From an uncultured Acidimicrobiales bacterium (GTDB lineage Bacteria; Actinomycetota; Acidimicrobiia; Acidimicrobiales; AC-14): 34,072 nt of DNA. The stretch covers positions 1 to 34,072 of the forward strand of contig CADCTB010000014.1 of the NCBI GenBank assembly GCA_902805665.1. The letters are read 5' to 3'. Under the pieces are notes generated by a model. The model worked only from the letters and a program-made list of their open reading frames with translations. It ran no database searches and was not told where the DNA came from. The translations under genes were made by a program, and so were the position numbers. How positions within the stretch are numbered: position 1 is the first letter of the stretch; every line of letters starts with the position of its first letter. Shown here piece by piece: positions 18,203 to 25,000 of the stretch.

Positions 18203-18948
18203 GAGTCGAATGTAGTTCGGGGCAGGGCGGCTGCCTCGAGGGAGCGGACCTCGTCGACCTCCAGCACCCGCCACTCCCCCGGCTTCAGTCGACGGTCGGC
18301 CAGCGGGCCGATCCGGGTGCGGACCAGCCGGCGTACCGGGTGGCCGATGGCCTCCAGCATGCGCCGCACCTGGCGGTTGCGGCCCTCGTGGATGACCAGG
18401 CGGACCGCTCCGGGCGCGGTGAGTGACGCCTTCGCCGGCGCGGTCCTCCCGTCGTCGAGGTCGATGCCCTCCCGCAGCCGGCGCAGCTCGGCCGGCGTCG
18501 GGCTCCCGTCCACCTCGGCCAGGTACTCCTTCTCGACGCCGAACGACGGATGGGTGAGGCGGTGGGCCAGGTCACCGTCGTTGGTGAGCAGGAGCAGGCC
18601 CTCGGTGTCGGTGTCGAGACGCCCGACCGGAAAGATCCGGGGCTCCGAGGGCACCAGCGCCACCACGGTCGGCCGGCCCTGGGGGTCGGATGCCGTGCTG
18701 ACCACTCCCCTGGGTTTGTTCAGCAGGTAGGTCACCAGCCCCGGCCGCACGGGCACCCGCAGCCCGTCGACCTCGATGCGGTCGTTGTCGGGATCGACCC
18801 GTCGCCCGAGGACGGCCACCTCCCCGTTCACCGTCACCCGCTCCTCGTCGATGAGGATCTCGCAGACCCGCCGGCTGCCCAAGCCGGCGGCCGCGAGGAC
18901 CTTCTGCAGCCGCTCGCCCTCGTGCATCGGGTCGCCCGCCGGCGTCAC
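18199..18948 (-). CDS. rluB: 23S rRNA pseudouridine synthase (RluB/RsuA family)
   Basis: Isomerises a uridine in large-subunit rRNA. The 249-residue protein has an S4 RNA-binding domain (about 11-60), LLNKPRGVVST (75-85), the catalytic block GRLDTDTEGLLLLTNDG (109-125, Asp112) and EGRNRQVRRML. The scpA - scpB - rluB order is a classic bacterial cluster. The GTG at 18948 is preferred because it overlaps the stop of a 17-codon linker ORF; an ATG at codon 8 is an alternative. Family firm; RluB versus RsuA subgroup inferred from context. Confidence 0.93.
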   Translation of the reverse strand: MTPAGDPMHEGERLQKVLAAAGLGSRRVCEILIDEERVTVNGEVAVLGRRVDPDNDRIEVDGLRVPVRPGLVTYLLNKPRGVVSTASDPQGRPTVVALVPSEPRIFPVGRLDTDTEGLLLLTNDGDLAHRLTHPSFGVEKEYLAEVDGSPTPAELRRLREGIDLDDGRTAPAKASLTAPGAVRLVIHEGRNRQVRRMLEAIGHPVRRLVRTRIGPLADRRLKPGEWRVLEVDEVRSLEAAALPRTTFDS

Positions 18949-18998
18949 GAGGCGTCAGCCCCGTGAACATCGATGGACCGGCCTCCCGGGCCGGTCAC
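18945..18998 (-). CDS. Candidate 17-aa linker ORF between scpB and rluB
   Basis: The GTG (18998-18996) overlaps the scpB TGA (GTGA), and its TGA overlaps the rluB GTG (GTGA). The peptide is VTGPGGRSIDVHGADAS. Its first eight codons are identical, apart from the start base, to those of the two tandem small ORFs at 23085-23206. It may be a translated linker that lets ribosomes step from scpB to rluB, or the trace of a palindromic repeat placed at the stop codon. Confidence 0.3.
   Translation of the reverse strand: MTGPGGRSIDVHGADAS
18976..18996. repeat. 21-bp palindrome GACCGGCC-n5-GGCCGGTC, copy 1
   Basis: Perfect 8-bp inverted repeat with a 5-nt spacer, overlapping the stop codon of scpB. 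The same palindrome is at 23125-23145 and 23184-23204, where the latter copy overlaps the stop codon of the first Glu permease. Confidence 0.7.
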
Positions 18999-19561
18999 GT
19001 CTCGTCGGCGCCCAGCCCCCGCTCCAGGGCCTCGACCACCTCGGGCCCGGGCACGAAGTCGCCAAGGGGCGGCAGGTCGGCCAAGGAGTCGACGCCCAGG
19101 CGCTCGAGGAACATTCTGCTGGTGCCGTAGAGCACCGCCTGACCCGGCCCGGGGTCACGCCCGACCTCCTCCACGTACCCCCGCTGGCAGAGCGTGCGCA
19201 TGACGGCGTCGGCGTTCACACCGCGAATCACCGCCACCTGCGCACGGGACACCGGCTGCTTGTACGCCACGATGGCCAGGGTCTCGAGGGCGGCGGGCGA
19301 CATCCGGGCCGGCTGGCCGTCGAGCACGAAGCGCTCCACGTACGGCGCCAGGTCGGGGTGGCTCTGGAACCGCCACCCGCCCGCCACCCGGACCAGCACG
19401 AACCCCCGGTCCTCGGCCTCGTAGGCGGCCGCCAGCTCCTCGCACAGCTCGTCGACCCGGACCGGGCTGACCTCCAGGAGCTGGGCCAGCAGCTGGGGCT
19501 CGACCGGCTCGTCGGCCACCATCAGGATCGCTTCGGCCGCCCGGGCGGCCTCAGATGCCAT
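18995..19561 (-). CDS. scpB: Segregation and condensation protein B
   Basis: Kleisin-associated winged-helix subunit of the SMC-ScpAB condensin. The 188-residue protein has two winged-helix domains, with the conserved blocks RVAGGWRFQSHPD, MSPAALETLAIVAYKQPVSRAQVAVIRGVNAD (quoted here as MSPAALETLAIVAYKQPVSR then AQVAVIRGVNAD, about 87-118) and YGTSRMFLERLG. The ATG at 19561 follows GGAG at about 6 nt and sits immediately after a TAG stop in its own frame. Its first nine codons are duplicated 66 nt upstream (19601-19627). It follows scpA with a 92-nt gap and is linked to rluB through a small ORF. Confidence 0.95.
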   Translation of the reverse strand: MASEAARAAEAILMVADEPVEPQLLAQLLEVSPVRVDELCEELAAAYEAEDRGFVLVRVAGGWRFQSHPDLAPYVERFVLDGQPARMSPAALETLAIVAYKQPVSRAQVAVIRGVNADAVMRTLCQRGYVEEVGRDPGPGQAVLYGTSRMFLERLGVDSLADLPPLGDFVPGPEVVEALERGLGADET

Positions 19562-21563: not shown

Positions 21564-22202
21564 GTGACTCAGCCGTACAGGCCGCGAACCCCACGAGCGG
21601 CTACGGCCCTCGCCTTCTGCCTCATGACTCTGGCCTTGGTGGCCTGCGGGGGCGACAAGGCAGCGCCCACCACCACGGCCCCCGAGGGCTTCACGGTGAT
21701 GAGCGACGCCAAGGAGGGCTTTGCCGTCGCCGTCCCCTCGGACTGGGTTCGGATACCGCTCAAGCCCAATCCGGCCGACTTCGACACGGACGCCAACGAG
21801 CTCCGCCGGCAGAACCCCAAGCTGGCGTCGATCCTCAACCAGGCCCGTGTCCTGGGCCAGTCCGGCGGCAAGTTCATGGCCGTGGCCCCGGACGGTGTCG
21901 CCAACGTGAACCTTACGGCCGACAAACCGAAGGAGAAGACGGTCGACGAGATCGTCACCAACTCGATCGAGGGGCTCAAGAGCTTCGAGGCGTCGAACTT
22001 CGCCCAGGAGCAGGCCACCCTCTCGGGTAAGCCGGCCGTCCGGCTCAGCTTCCGGCTCCCGGTCGACACCGATGCCGGCCGTATTCCGACCGATGAGATC
22101 CAGCACTACCTGCTCGAGGACGAGAAGGCCTACATCCTCACCGTGGCCGCCGCCGCCCCGCCCGTGGCGTCGGCCATCGCGGGCAGCCTGAAACTCAGGT
22201 AG
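21564..22202 (+). CDS. Putative lipoprotein of unknown function
   Basis: A 212-residue protein with a lipoprotein signal peptide and lipobox LVAC (Cys28), a short Thr/Ala/Pro linker, then about 170 residues of mixed alpha/beta sequence: GFAVAVPSDWVRIPL, KFMAVAPDG, TVDEIVTNSIEGLKSFEASN, a late HYLLEDEKAYILTVAA and a final SLKLR. The pattern 'f.v.vP.gW' with a C-terminal 'r..yvlt' strand resembles PsbP/LpqN-like lipoproteins of actinobacteria, which would fit surface binding or transport roles, but I cannot confirm the family by eye. Its 3' end overlaps that of the converging permease gene by 8 bp. Confidence 0.8.
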   Translation: MTQPYRPRTPRAATALAFCLMTLALVACGGDKAAPTTTAPEGFTVMSDAKEGFAVAVPSDWVRIPLKPNPADFDTDANELRRQNPKLASILNQARVLGQSGGKFMAVAPDGVANVNLTADKPKEKTVDEIVTNSIEGLKSFEASNFAQEQATLSGKPAVRLSFRLPVDTDAGRIPTDEIQHYLLEDEKAYILTVAAAAPPVASAIAGSLKLR

Positions 22203-23088
22203 CGCCCTCCGACGCCTCGGCGGCGTCGCCCTGGATCCCCATCAGGGCCAGGTCCATGCCGGCGCCCGGCACCACGATGGCCCCGGCCCGGTAGCGCCGG
22301 CGCTGCCGTACTTCGAGGCGGCGGGCCACCATGCTCAGGGCGAAACACACGACGATGTACAACACCGCCACCACGAAGAGCGACTGGAGCGGGTTCTGGA
22401 AGAACTCGCCGTTGATCCGGCCCCGGCGCAGCAGCTCCTCGAAGGCCACGGCGGCGCCCAGCGAGGAGTCCTTGAGCAGTGTCACCAGCTGGCTCACGAT
22501 GGCGGGAATCATGCGGCGGGCCGCCTGCGGGATGACTACCAGCAGCATGGCCTGCCAATAACCCATGCCGAGGGAGTAGGCGGCCTCGGTCTGACCCCGG
22601 TCGAGGGAGAGGATCCCGGCCCGGAAGATCTCGCCCAGGACGGCGCCGTTGTAGATGATCAGGCCGATGGCCACGTACCAGAAGACCGAGAGGCGCACGC
22701 CGTAGGTGGGCAGACCGAGGGCGGAGAAGAAGATCAGCAGGACCAGCGGCAACCCTCGGAAGAACTCCACGAAACCTGTCGTGCCCCAGCGGACCGGTCC
22801 GGTGCGGGAGAGCCGGGCCAGGGCCAGCACGGCTCCGATGACCATGGCGCCGACCATGGAGACCAACGCCACCTCCATCGTGGTCCTCAGCCCCTCGAGG
22901 AAGAACCTCTGGACCGGCCCCTGGGTGAAGGGCTCCCACTTGGCCTGGGCGAGCTGGCCGTTGTCACCCAGCCGCTTGATGGCCACGACGATGAACCCGA
23001 TCACGGCGAACGCGCTGACCACCGACACGATCCGGGTGATCCGGCGCCCGCGGGGGCCGAGCGCGTCGCCGATGAACGGTGCCGTCAT
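22195..23088 (-). CDS. gluD: Glutamate-type ABC transporter, permease 2 (GluD-like)
   Basis: A 297-residue inner-membrane permease of the HisMQ family for polar amino acids. An N-terminal helix (about 20-40) precedes the transport core, which has FRGLPLVLLIFFSALGL, the ATPase-coupling loop EAAYSLGMGYWQAMLLVVIP and LLKDSSLGAAVAFEELL. The longer N-terminus and C-terminal tail match GluD rather than GluC. The ATG at 23088 has GGGAGG 7 nt upstream; that ribosome binding site and start lie in the second unit of a 59-bp tandem repeat. Fourth gene of the gluABCD-type set. Confidence 0.92.
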   Translation of the reverse strand: MTAPFIGDALGPRGRRITRIVSVVSAFAVIGFIVVAIKRLGDNGQLAQAKWEPFTQGPVQRFFLEGLRTTMEVALVSMVGAMVIGAVLALARLSRTGPVRWGTTGFVEFFRGLPLVLLIFFSALGLPTYGVRLSVFWYVAIGLIIYNGAVLGEIFRAGILSLDRGQTEAAYSLGMGYWQAMLLVVIPQAARRMIPAIVSQLVTLLKDSSLGAAVAFEELLRRGRINGEFFQNPLQSLFVVAVLYIVVCFALSMVARRLEVRQRRRYRAGAIVVPGAGMDLALMGIQGDAAEASEGAT

Positions 23089-23147
23089 CGCCCGCCCTCC
23101 CGGTCGGGCGCTGCTTGCCGGACGGACCGGCCTCCCGGGCCGGTCAT
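23085..23147 (-). CDS. Candidate 20-aa linker ORF 2 (MTGPGGRS family)
   Basis: The ATG overlaps the TGA of linker ORF 1 and its TGA overlaps the ATG of gluD (ATGA at both ends). The peptide is MTGPGGRSVRQAAPDREGGR, identical to linker ORF 1. A GGGAGG lies 7 nt before the start. It may be a translated re-initiation relay or simply the product of the tandem duplication. Confidence 0.35.
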   Translation of the reverse strand: MTGPGGRSVRQAAPDREGGR

Positions 23148-23206
23148 CGCCCGCCCTCCCGGTCGGGCGCTGCTTGCCGGACGGACCGGCCTCCCGGGCC
23201 GGTCAT
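23144..23206 (-). CDS. Candidate 20-aa linker ORF 1 (MTGPGGRS family)
   Basis: The ATG overlaps the gluC stop (AAACGATGA) and its TGA overlaps the ATG of linker ORF 2. Peptide identical to ORF 2. Unlike ORF 2 it has no obvious upstream ribosome binding site, so it would rely on ribosomes terminating at gluC. Confidence 0.35.
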   Translation of the reverse strand: MTGPGGRSVRQAAPDREGGR

Positions 23207-23847
23207 CGTTTGATTGCCACCCGTCGCTCGAGCCAGTTGGTGGCGAAGCCGGACGGGATCGTCAACAGGAGGTAGGCGGCGGCGGCGCCCAGGAAGGCGG
23301 GTATGAACTGGGCGGTGTCGGTGCCCAGCTGGGTGGCCGCGCTGGTGAGCTCGGGGACGTTGATGGCCACCGCCACCCCGGAGTTCTTGAGCAGGGCGAT
23401 GAAGATGCCGCCGAGGGGACCGACCACCGTGCGGAGGGCTTGGGGCATCACGACGAGCCGCAGTGACTGCGGGAACGTCAGCCCGATGGCCCGCGCCGCC
23501 TCGGCCTGGCCGGTGGAGACCGCGTTGATGCCGGACCGTACGGTCTCCCCCACGAACGTGGCCGTGTAGGCGGTGAGCACGATCACGGCCGAGGCGAAGT
23601 AGGAGTAGGTGAAGCCGATGCTCGGGAAGGCGAAGACCACCACGAACATCAGGACCAGCAAGGGCGTGTTGCGGACCATCTCCACGTAGGTGGCACTGGC
23701 CCACCGCAGGGGCGGCACGGGGCTGACCCGGAGGGCGGCGACGACGATGCCCAGGATGAAGGCCAGGATGAAGGAGAGGACGCTCAGCTCCAGCGTCCTG
23801 CGCATGCCCTCGAGGAAGATGTCGAGGTTGTCGAACACCACGCTCAC
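23203..23847 (-). CDS. gluC: Glutamate-type ABC transporter, permease 1 (GluC-like)
   Basis: A 214-residue HisMQ-family permease with five predicted membrane helices, the block MVRNTPLLVLMFVVVFAFP, the coupling loop EAARAIGLTFPQSLRLVVMP and LLKNSGVAVAINVPEL. Length matches GluC (about 220-228). The GTG at 23847 follows a GAGGTGG ribosome binding site that lies in the loop of a strong hairpin (23848-23874), so translation may be limited by RNA folding. Third gene of the gluABCD-type set. Confidence 0.92.
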   Translation of the reverse strand: MSVVFDNLDIFLEGMRRTLELSVLSFILAFILGIVVAALRVSPVPPLRWASATYVEMVRNTPLLVLMFVVVFAFPSIGFTYSYFASAVIVLTAYTATFVGETVRSGINAVSTGQAEAARAIGLTFPQSLRLVVMPQALRTVVGPLGGIFIALLKNSGVAVAINVPELTSAATQLGTDTAQFIPAFLGAAAAYLLLTIPSGFATNWLERRVAIKR

Positions 23848-23902: not shown

Positions 23903-25000
23903 TCAGGAGGCGCGGGTTGTAGAGGTTGTCGACGCCACAGTGGTGGAGGGCGCCGTGGTGGTGCTGCCGGTGCCACCGGCGGAGGTGGTGGCGGTTCCAC
24001 CTGTGACGGTGGTGGTGGCGGTTCCACTACCAGCACCGGGGATGGTGGTGGCGGTTCCCCCGCCGGAGGTGGTCGCCGGGGCGGCTCCGGCGGAGGTGTA
24101 GCGGTTCACCGGCGGCGGCGTAGGCGTGGGAATGCCGAGCTTGCCCAGGGTGGCGGCGAACAGCTTGGCCCACTCCCCGTTGGCGTAGATGGCTTCCAAC
24201 CGGTCGTTGATGTAGTTCCGGAAGGCGTCGTCACCGCGCTTCACACCGATCCCGTAGGGCTCGTCGGTGAACTTGTTGCCGACGATCTTGAACTCCGTCG
24301 GGGCGCCGGCGACGAAGCCCAGGAGGATCGAGTTGTCGGTGGTCACCGACTGCACCCGACCGTCACGCAGCGCCTGGACACAGTCGGAGTACTGGTCGAA
24401 CTCCGTCAGGTCGGCCGTCGGGACCACCCGCTTGACGTTGGCCGCAGGCGTGGAGTTGCGGACGCTACAGGTCTTCTTCCCGGCCAGGTCGTTCACGCCC
24501 CTGATGCTGTTGTCGTTCGCCTTGACCATGATGTCCTGGCCGGCGATGTAGTACGGCCCGGCGAAGTCGATGCGCTGCTTGCGGGCGTCGTTGATGGTGT
24601 AGGTGGCCACCACCATGTCGACAGTGTTGTTCTCGAGGAACACCTCCCGGTTGGGGGTGGTGGCCTCGCGGAACTCGATCTTGCTCTCGATGTCCTCGAT
24701 CTTCCCGCCGTAGATGCCCAGCGCGATCTGCTTGGCGATCTCGACGTCGAAGCCCTCGATCTTGTTGGTGACCGGGTTCTTCTGGCCCAGGCCGGGCTGG
24801 TCGAACTTCACGCCGACGATCATCTTGCCCTTGCTCTGGAGGTTGGCCATCGTCGTGCCGGCCGCGAACGTGGGCCTGGCCGCGGTGGTGTCGCTCGACT
24901 GCCCGCCGCCCACCGTGTTGTCGTCGTCGCCGCCTCCACAGGCAGAGGCGGTGAGCGCCACCGCGACGAGGGTCGCCCCTATGAATCGGATTCTTCGCAT
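23903..25000 (-). CDS. gluB: Glutamate-type ABC transporter, solute-binding lipoprotein (GluB-like)
   Basis: A 365-residue lipoprotein that captures the amino acid outside the membrane. It has a signal peptide with lipobox TASAC (Cys21), then the SBP_bac_3 fold (about 50-300): GVKFDQPGLGQKNP, IEGFDVEIAKQIA, FREATTPNREVFLENNTVDMV (cut here to NREVFLENNTVDMV), YTINDARKQRIDFAGPYY, KTCSVRNSTPA and YGIGVKRGDDAFR. These agree with the Glu/Asp-binding GluB group. The last 65 residues form a Thr/Ser/Gly/Ala-rich low-complexity tail, unusual at the C-terminus of this family. The ATG has a strong TGAGGAG ribosome binding site. A 15-codon frame (25011-25058, MRSTDPMFSTNEATT) in the 61-nt gap after gluA ends on that ribosome binding site. 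Confidence 0.93.
   Translation of the reverse strand: MRRIRFIGATLVAVALTASACGGGDDDNTVGGGQSSDTTAARPTFAAGTTMANLQSKGKMIVGVKFDQPGLGQKNPVTNKIEGFDVEIAKQIALGIYGGKIEDIESKIEFREATTPNREVFLENNTVDMVVATYTINDARKQRIDFAGPYYIAGQDIMVKANDNSIRGVNDLAGKKTCSVRNSTPAANVKRVVPTADLTEFDQYSDCVQALRDGRVQSVTTDNSILLGFVAGAPTEFKIVGNKFTDEPYGIGVKRGDDAFRNYINDRLEAIYANGEWAKLFAATLGKLGIPTPTPPPVNRYTSAGAAPATTSGGGTATTIPGAGSGTATTTVTGGTATTSAGGTGSTTTAPSTTVASTTSTTRAS

Follow-up and report, generated by a model that had tools for sequence, protein, structure and literature searches.

The two identical 20-codon open reading frames (ORFs) that lie between gluC and gluD in the window (the whole 34,072-nt stretch of DNA analyzed here) are, on the evidence of their sequence, members of an interspersed repeat family and not a one-off product of slippage. 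The array quite probably represents two tandem copies of a small interspersed repeat that is tolerated because it recreates a coupled junction between the two genes. The same type of unit recurs across the genome and in relatives, so a chance origin of the gluC-gluD units is excluded.

The array is located on the minus strand. As the earlier note had described exactly, the two ORFs occupy a 59-bp tandem repeat and three ATGA overlaps link gluC to gluD; Tandem Repeats Finder reports a period of 59 bp and 2.1 copies at 100%, and the period-59 self-match spans 23084-23208. The gluC-like amino-acid ABC transporter permease (23203-23847; PF00528, E-value 3.9e-20) ends on this strand in CGATGA. Its terminal stretch reads AAACGATGA, and its TGA (23203-23205) overlaps the ATG at 23206 that begins, as ATGACC, the mini-ORF of unit 1 (23144-23206), a family member encoding MTGPGGRSVRQAAPDREGGR followed by a stop. 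The TGA of unit 1 is shared with the ATG of the identical 20-codon mini-ORF of unit 2 (23085-23147), 59 bp further downstream, and the TGA of unit 2 is shared with the ATG of the gluD-like permease (22195-23088, minus strand; PF00528, E-value 2.2e-18). The 4-nt stop/start overlap between co-directional ORFs that characterizes termination-reinitiation is thus found three times in succession, each time as ATGA. The surrounding genes make up an amino-acid ABC importer, in which an SBP_bac_3 binding protein and an ABC ATPase accompany the two permeases (both BPD_transp_1). Toward its 3' end, at 23957-24073 of the window, the binding-protein gene contains imperfect 24-27-bp repeats that encode a Thr/Gly-rich C-terminal tail.

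A search of the window's own genome with one unit recovers both copies together with 28 partial matches, many of them arranged in tandem at intervals of 50, 65 and 68. A pattern search for hairpin 1 in the same genome yields 34 matches versus 2 for the reversed control, and two genomes of the same genus contain 22 and 50 core matches. Census loci were picked by hairpin 1 alone, blind to reading frame, and number 22 in the window's own genome (G000, where pattern searches, model searches and fetched stretches were combined), 37 in G002, 20 in G001 and 85 over all genomes censused. The members share a plan in which a DTGA is followed by hairpin 1 (TGANCGGCCCGGGAGGCCGN'TC), a linker often near AAGCATTCA and a variable hairpin 2 ending in the next DTGA; each unit carries an ORF of 17-23 codons whose frame matches both DTGAs. 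The family core is DTGANCGGCCCGGGAGGCCGNTC, after which comes a second covarying hairpin enclosing the next start codon, often with a Shine-Dalgarno (SD)-like motif. Units are mostly 50-68 bp in length and form arrays of two or three at periods of 50, 59, 65 and 68 bp, although the commonest state is a single copy. A second family member in the window is a 17-codon unit (18945-18998, minus strand) encoding VTGPGGRSIDVHGADAS and a stop, which chains scpB (18995-19561) to a pseudouridine-synthase-like ORF with a GTG start at 18948. Low-mismatch cores in three other genomes (G037, G057 and G004) do not follow the TGA-chained plan and were taken as unrelated GC-rich palindromes.

These data bear directly on the plainer reading offered in the earlier note, that of a replication-slippage minisatellite whose junction carries ATGA by chance. 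Slippage accounts well for the second copy, which most likely arose by local tandem duplication because the two copies are 100% identical. It is contradicted for the first copy, which came in as part of an interspersed family whose units begin, end and fold alike at scores of loci. Single copies are chained as well, and relatives carry no precursor at gluC-gluD, all of which makes slippage a very improbable explanation of the array as a whole.

The chain of upstream ORF, one or more mini-ORFs and downstream ORF is complete in 59 of the 85 census loci. This test required that the upstream ORF, 60 codons or longer, end at the first DTGA, that mini-ORFs of up to 31 codons each end in a DTGA, and that the downstream ORF either reach 100 codons or still be open where the stretch ends. 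Among 1677 other DTGA sites in this DNA, 62 (3.7%) pass a closely similar chain test. The mini-ORFs are mainly 23, 17, 22 and 20 codons in size. With only hairpin 2 used to set the unit end, a length of 2 modulo 3 is found in 60 of 69 distinct units, spread over 50, 59, 62, 65 and 68 bp. This statistic overstates independence in that family members share ancestry; the relevant feature is that lengths differ by multiples of three. These counts, together with the arrays at periods of 50, 59, 65 and 68 bp, bear out the proposal that unit length keeps the ATGA chain intact and that copies can be gained without breaking it. Chain-breaking lengths, the evidence sought against that proposal, weaken it only marginally: the nine units outside the 2-modulo-3 class include two that are partial (L005 and L091), one with an ambiguous end (L060) and rare true chain-breakers at L083 (49 bp), L062 (66), L098 (66), L135 (64) and L130 (49), and at L102 one of three units (69 bp) breaks the chain through an extra G in a G run. 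At another locus (L301, 1255-1350), the hairpin-1 loop is larger by 24 nt, a multiple of three, and the chain is still intact.

Among the non-chained copies, 4 have no TGA, 10 have a core start codon that runs into the downstream ORF and 2 look convergent. The last are at L035 (C221) and L029 (C116), where the copies appear to be placed between convergent genes at TGA or TAG stops; coupling does not explain their retention, because the flanking genes appear convergent. Codon position 3 is no more variable than positions 1 and 2, so it is the frame that is kept and not a peptide, and a conserved peptide function was ruled out on this basis. A one-base target match, in which the base after the left TGA is compared with the base after the right TGA, is at best suggestive (Fisher p 0.03 for G).

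Both hairpins show strong evidence of covariation. In unit 1, hairpin 1 (GACCGGCC CGGGA GGCCGGTC), the hallmark of the family, is located at 23184-23204 on the minus strand, and its counterpart in unit 2 is at 23125-23145; both are predicted by folding and carry compensatory changes family-wide. Hairpin 2, as predicted from minimum free energy (MFE) folds of the isolated units, encloses the T and G of the next start codon in unit 1 (23145-23172, minus strand) and the gluD start codon in unit 2 (23086-23113, minus strand). Across 28 distinct 72-nt units, pairing is preserved at 98% in hairpin 1 and 86% in hairpin 2, and 11 of 25 pairs exhibit changes on both sides. The number of double-change cells is 41, compared with 13.9 in shuffles and 5-12 in slid controls, and the 17-codon class agrees (14 versus 5.6). 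In the MFE folds of 85 of 86 isolated family units, the next start codon has its T or G base-paired.

An SD-like GGGAGGG lies within hairpin 2 of unit 2 (23095-23101, minus strand), 7 nt 5' of the gluD ATG when counted from GGAGG, with a unit-1 counterpart at 23154-23160 on the same strand; the anti-SD energy at the gluC-gluD locus is -10.8 kcal/mol. Anti-SD binding before the next start is -7.2 kcal/mol at element ends versus -4.5 kcal/mol at host overlaps, and shuffles of the element ends themselves bind more weakly than the real ends, at -5.6 (sd 0.26). An SD-like 5-mer occurs at 35 of 65 element ends and at 12 of 65 host ends, figures that likewise overstate independence given the shared ancestry of family members; some classes have no strong motif. 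In the full tandem RNA of the array, unit 1 and unit 2 are also predicted to pair with one another, and the array as a whole has a stable predicted fold of -80 kcal/mol, which could slow ribosomes and to that extent counts against the tolerated-repeat reading. A search against Rfam gave no match above the gathering score of any family, with the best sub-threshold hits far below.

The covariation of both hairpins, the few copies at non-chained or convergent gene ends and the lack of constraint on the peptide sequence would suit an RNA or DNA structural element, such as an mRNA stabilizer, an attenuator, a protein-binding palindrome or a REP/BIME-like repeat, for which the chain is a tolerated by-product of insertion at stop codons. 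A purely structural role needs neither frame preservation across length classes nor exact DTGA ends nor enrichment of SD-like motifs, and we therefore regard such a role as improbable. REP and BIME elements resemble the family in being short, palindromic and interspersed, and in lying near stop codons singly or in arrays, but the units described here carry ORFs, preserve the frame and have a DTGA at both ends. The Y1 transposase domain of the REP/RAYT kind (PF01797; Y1_Tnp, TnpA_REP) was detected in none of the six genomes examined, with positive controls detected, and a REP mobilized by RAYT/Y1 is excluded as far as this absence in six genomes goes.

Orthologous junctions were found in both filled and empty states. 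In five relatives, gluC and gluD have no element between them and are joined by a direct 4-nt ATGA or GTGA overlap in each: AAGCGATGACGGC in G005 (L141), AAGCGGTGAACG in G001, AAGCGGTGACGG in G010, AAGAGGTGACGG in G002 and AAACGATGAGCGGC in G006. The scpB junction, filled in the window, is empty in G002 (L155). The junction on C57 has three units and is empty in G001, and both the phoU-regX3-like junction and L040 are filled in the census and empty in G001 and G002. L004 is filled in G000 and G001 and empty in G002, and L026 is filled in G000 and G002 and empty in G001. Different unit classes can occupy one junction, which carries a 68-bp unit in G002 (L097, 1474) and a 50-bp unit in G001 (L137, 1503), which points either to more than one insertion event or to a switch of class through an 18-nt in-frame change. 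From the comparison of filled with empty sites it follows that the element came to junctions that were already coupled and left them coupled. A 4-nt overlap was not the prior state everywhere: relatives of L030 have a short gap, and the pyrH-frr-like site (L022) before the element was apparently a spacer with its own SD. At L022, two 65-bp units (1437-1570) precede frr with AAGGAGGT about 6 nt 5' of each ATG, and hairpin 1 there is TGATCGG..CCGATC, matching the ATGATCG start of frr. At the phoU-regX3-like locus (L006, near 1380), one element separates the phoU-like gene from a regX3-like response regulator.

The earlier note had put forward a tunable re-initiation relay that sets the GluC:GluD ratio. 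On this reading, selection would act on the number of units, each of which would lose some ribosomes. Arrays of one to three chained units do occur at many junctions, orthologous junctions differ in unit number and class, and the copies within one array are often identical, which indicates that the number can change. Against selection on that number stand the absence of any unit at gluC-gluD in all five relatives examined, the presence of elements at dozens of junctions unrelated in function, a peptide free of constraint and the fact that no array was seen whose unit number is conserved across species. The two permease subunits of an importer of this type are also expected in equal amounts. 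The comparison of copy number in relatives thus lends the ratio device no support, and we consider it distinctly unlikely. A near-neutral, self-preserving element that persists without tuning the GluC:GluD ratio is the simpler account, because its sites are functionally unrelated and empty in relatives, and we infer that this is its role.

The mechanism we propose for a tolerated interspersed repeat begins with insertion of the element at a pre-existing 4-nt gluC/gluD overlap, followed by local duplication. A ribosome finishing gluC would re-initiate at the unit-1 ATG, read 20 codons and unfold the hairpins, and on terminating at the unit-2 ATG it would re-initiate there, and then likewise at gluD. 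Re-initiation along the chain is possible because the element brings its own overlapping start and stop; by virtue of the same overlaps, the inserted DNA would be translated, leaving the operon uninterrupted and without an untranslated gap. The next start codon, often with its SD-like motif, would be held within hairpin 2 and would therefore be accessible mainly to ribosomes coming from upstream. Such re-initiation at the units in vivo, like the mobility of the element, is what the arrangement of sequences suggests, and the element is probably non-autonomous. Native gene pairs that overlap in this way as a rule show strict coupling, an SD ahead of the second start contributes to a variable degree, and local structure has been proposed to block independent or de novo initiation (Huber et al., 2019; PMC6728339). 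The anatomy of the family fits coupled re-initiation of this kind. It shares the ATGA/GTGA overlaps of termination-reinitiation pairs, and differs from them in that the overlap is multiplied by an inserted repeat with its own mini-ORF, hairpin and often SD-like motif.

The closest known counterparts are the mycobacterial interspersed repetitive units (MIRUs), which were reportedly first described by Supply et al. in 1997 in a mycobacterial two-component operon. MIRUs are repeats of 46-101 bp present at 41 loci in Mycobacterium tuberculosis (PMC3914561), are apparently mobile and insert at start codons with an ORF that keeps translation coupled at a -4 nt spacing (2025 review; PMC12548453), and the rnc-fpg1 junction has only a few bases in most mycobacteria without repeats (PMC2734929). 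Both families have interspersed and tandem intergenic units at dozens of loci with variable copy number and are presumably mobile; the units here fall within the corresponding 40-101-bp range, at 22, 37 and 20 loci in G000, G002 and G001. Other likenesses are an ORF that overlaps its flanking genes by 4 nt (DTGA), found at the 59 chained loci, and insertion at coupled junctions that are empty in relatives, both at gluC-gluD and elsewhere. The hosts here are metagenome-assembled genomes (MAGs) of Acidimicrobiia and not mycobacteria, and the core DTGANCGGCCCGGGAGGCCGNTC and the covarying second hairpin around the next start, in many cases with an SD-like motif, are specific to this family. The working plan is the same, a likeness in anatomy. 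More tentatively, and with somewhat less than even confidence, we suggest that Acidimicrobiia have independently evolved a MIRU-like class of mobile repeat that targets stop/start overlaps with a self-contained coupling cassette. In such a cassette, SD and start would be hidden in a covarying hairpin that only a ribosome translating the unit could open; insertion would then have almost no effect, and the ribosome loss per junction would be set by array length. A search of the available literature found no chained repeats of this kind outside mycobacteria.

The family has a narrow distribution. Among 84,980 named species genomes, a search that may omit the window's own record, the exact core occurs only in the MAGs nzgw82, 83, 84, 85 and BP_101 and in one Actinomadura contig. 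Scanning 198 genomes of the order with a covariance model reveals the family in 8. These include a second taxonomic family, with at least 25 copies in G074 and six in G111, which provides a replicate: the full chain is present in 13 of 23 fetched G074 copies and in 5 of 6 G111 copies. Under strict filters, the model found nothing beyond the window's own genus in class and phylum samples, and among 396 genomes sampled from the phylum it matched only the window's own genome. Viral contigs gave 0 exact core matches, and a search of plasmid DNA with the junction returned just generic permease matches.

The repeats described here constitute a second family of the MIRU kind, in a bacterial class other than that of the mycobacteria. 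They combine strong covariation with orthologous sites in both filled and empty states and with arrays of zero to three units. They offer a natural experiment on the number of re-initiation steps that an operon can bear and on what allows repeat DNA to persist within operons. For annotation, chained 17-23-codon ORFs beginning MTGPGGRS should be read as repeat units and not as conserved peptides. Some genes also seem to have captured the start codon of an element: in the last partial unit of L005 and at L053, L054, L089, L091, L095, L107, L110, L111 and L115, the core start codon is continuous with the downstream ORF, and the gene at such loci has an MTGPGGRS-like N-terminal extension.
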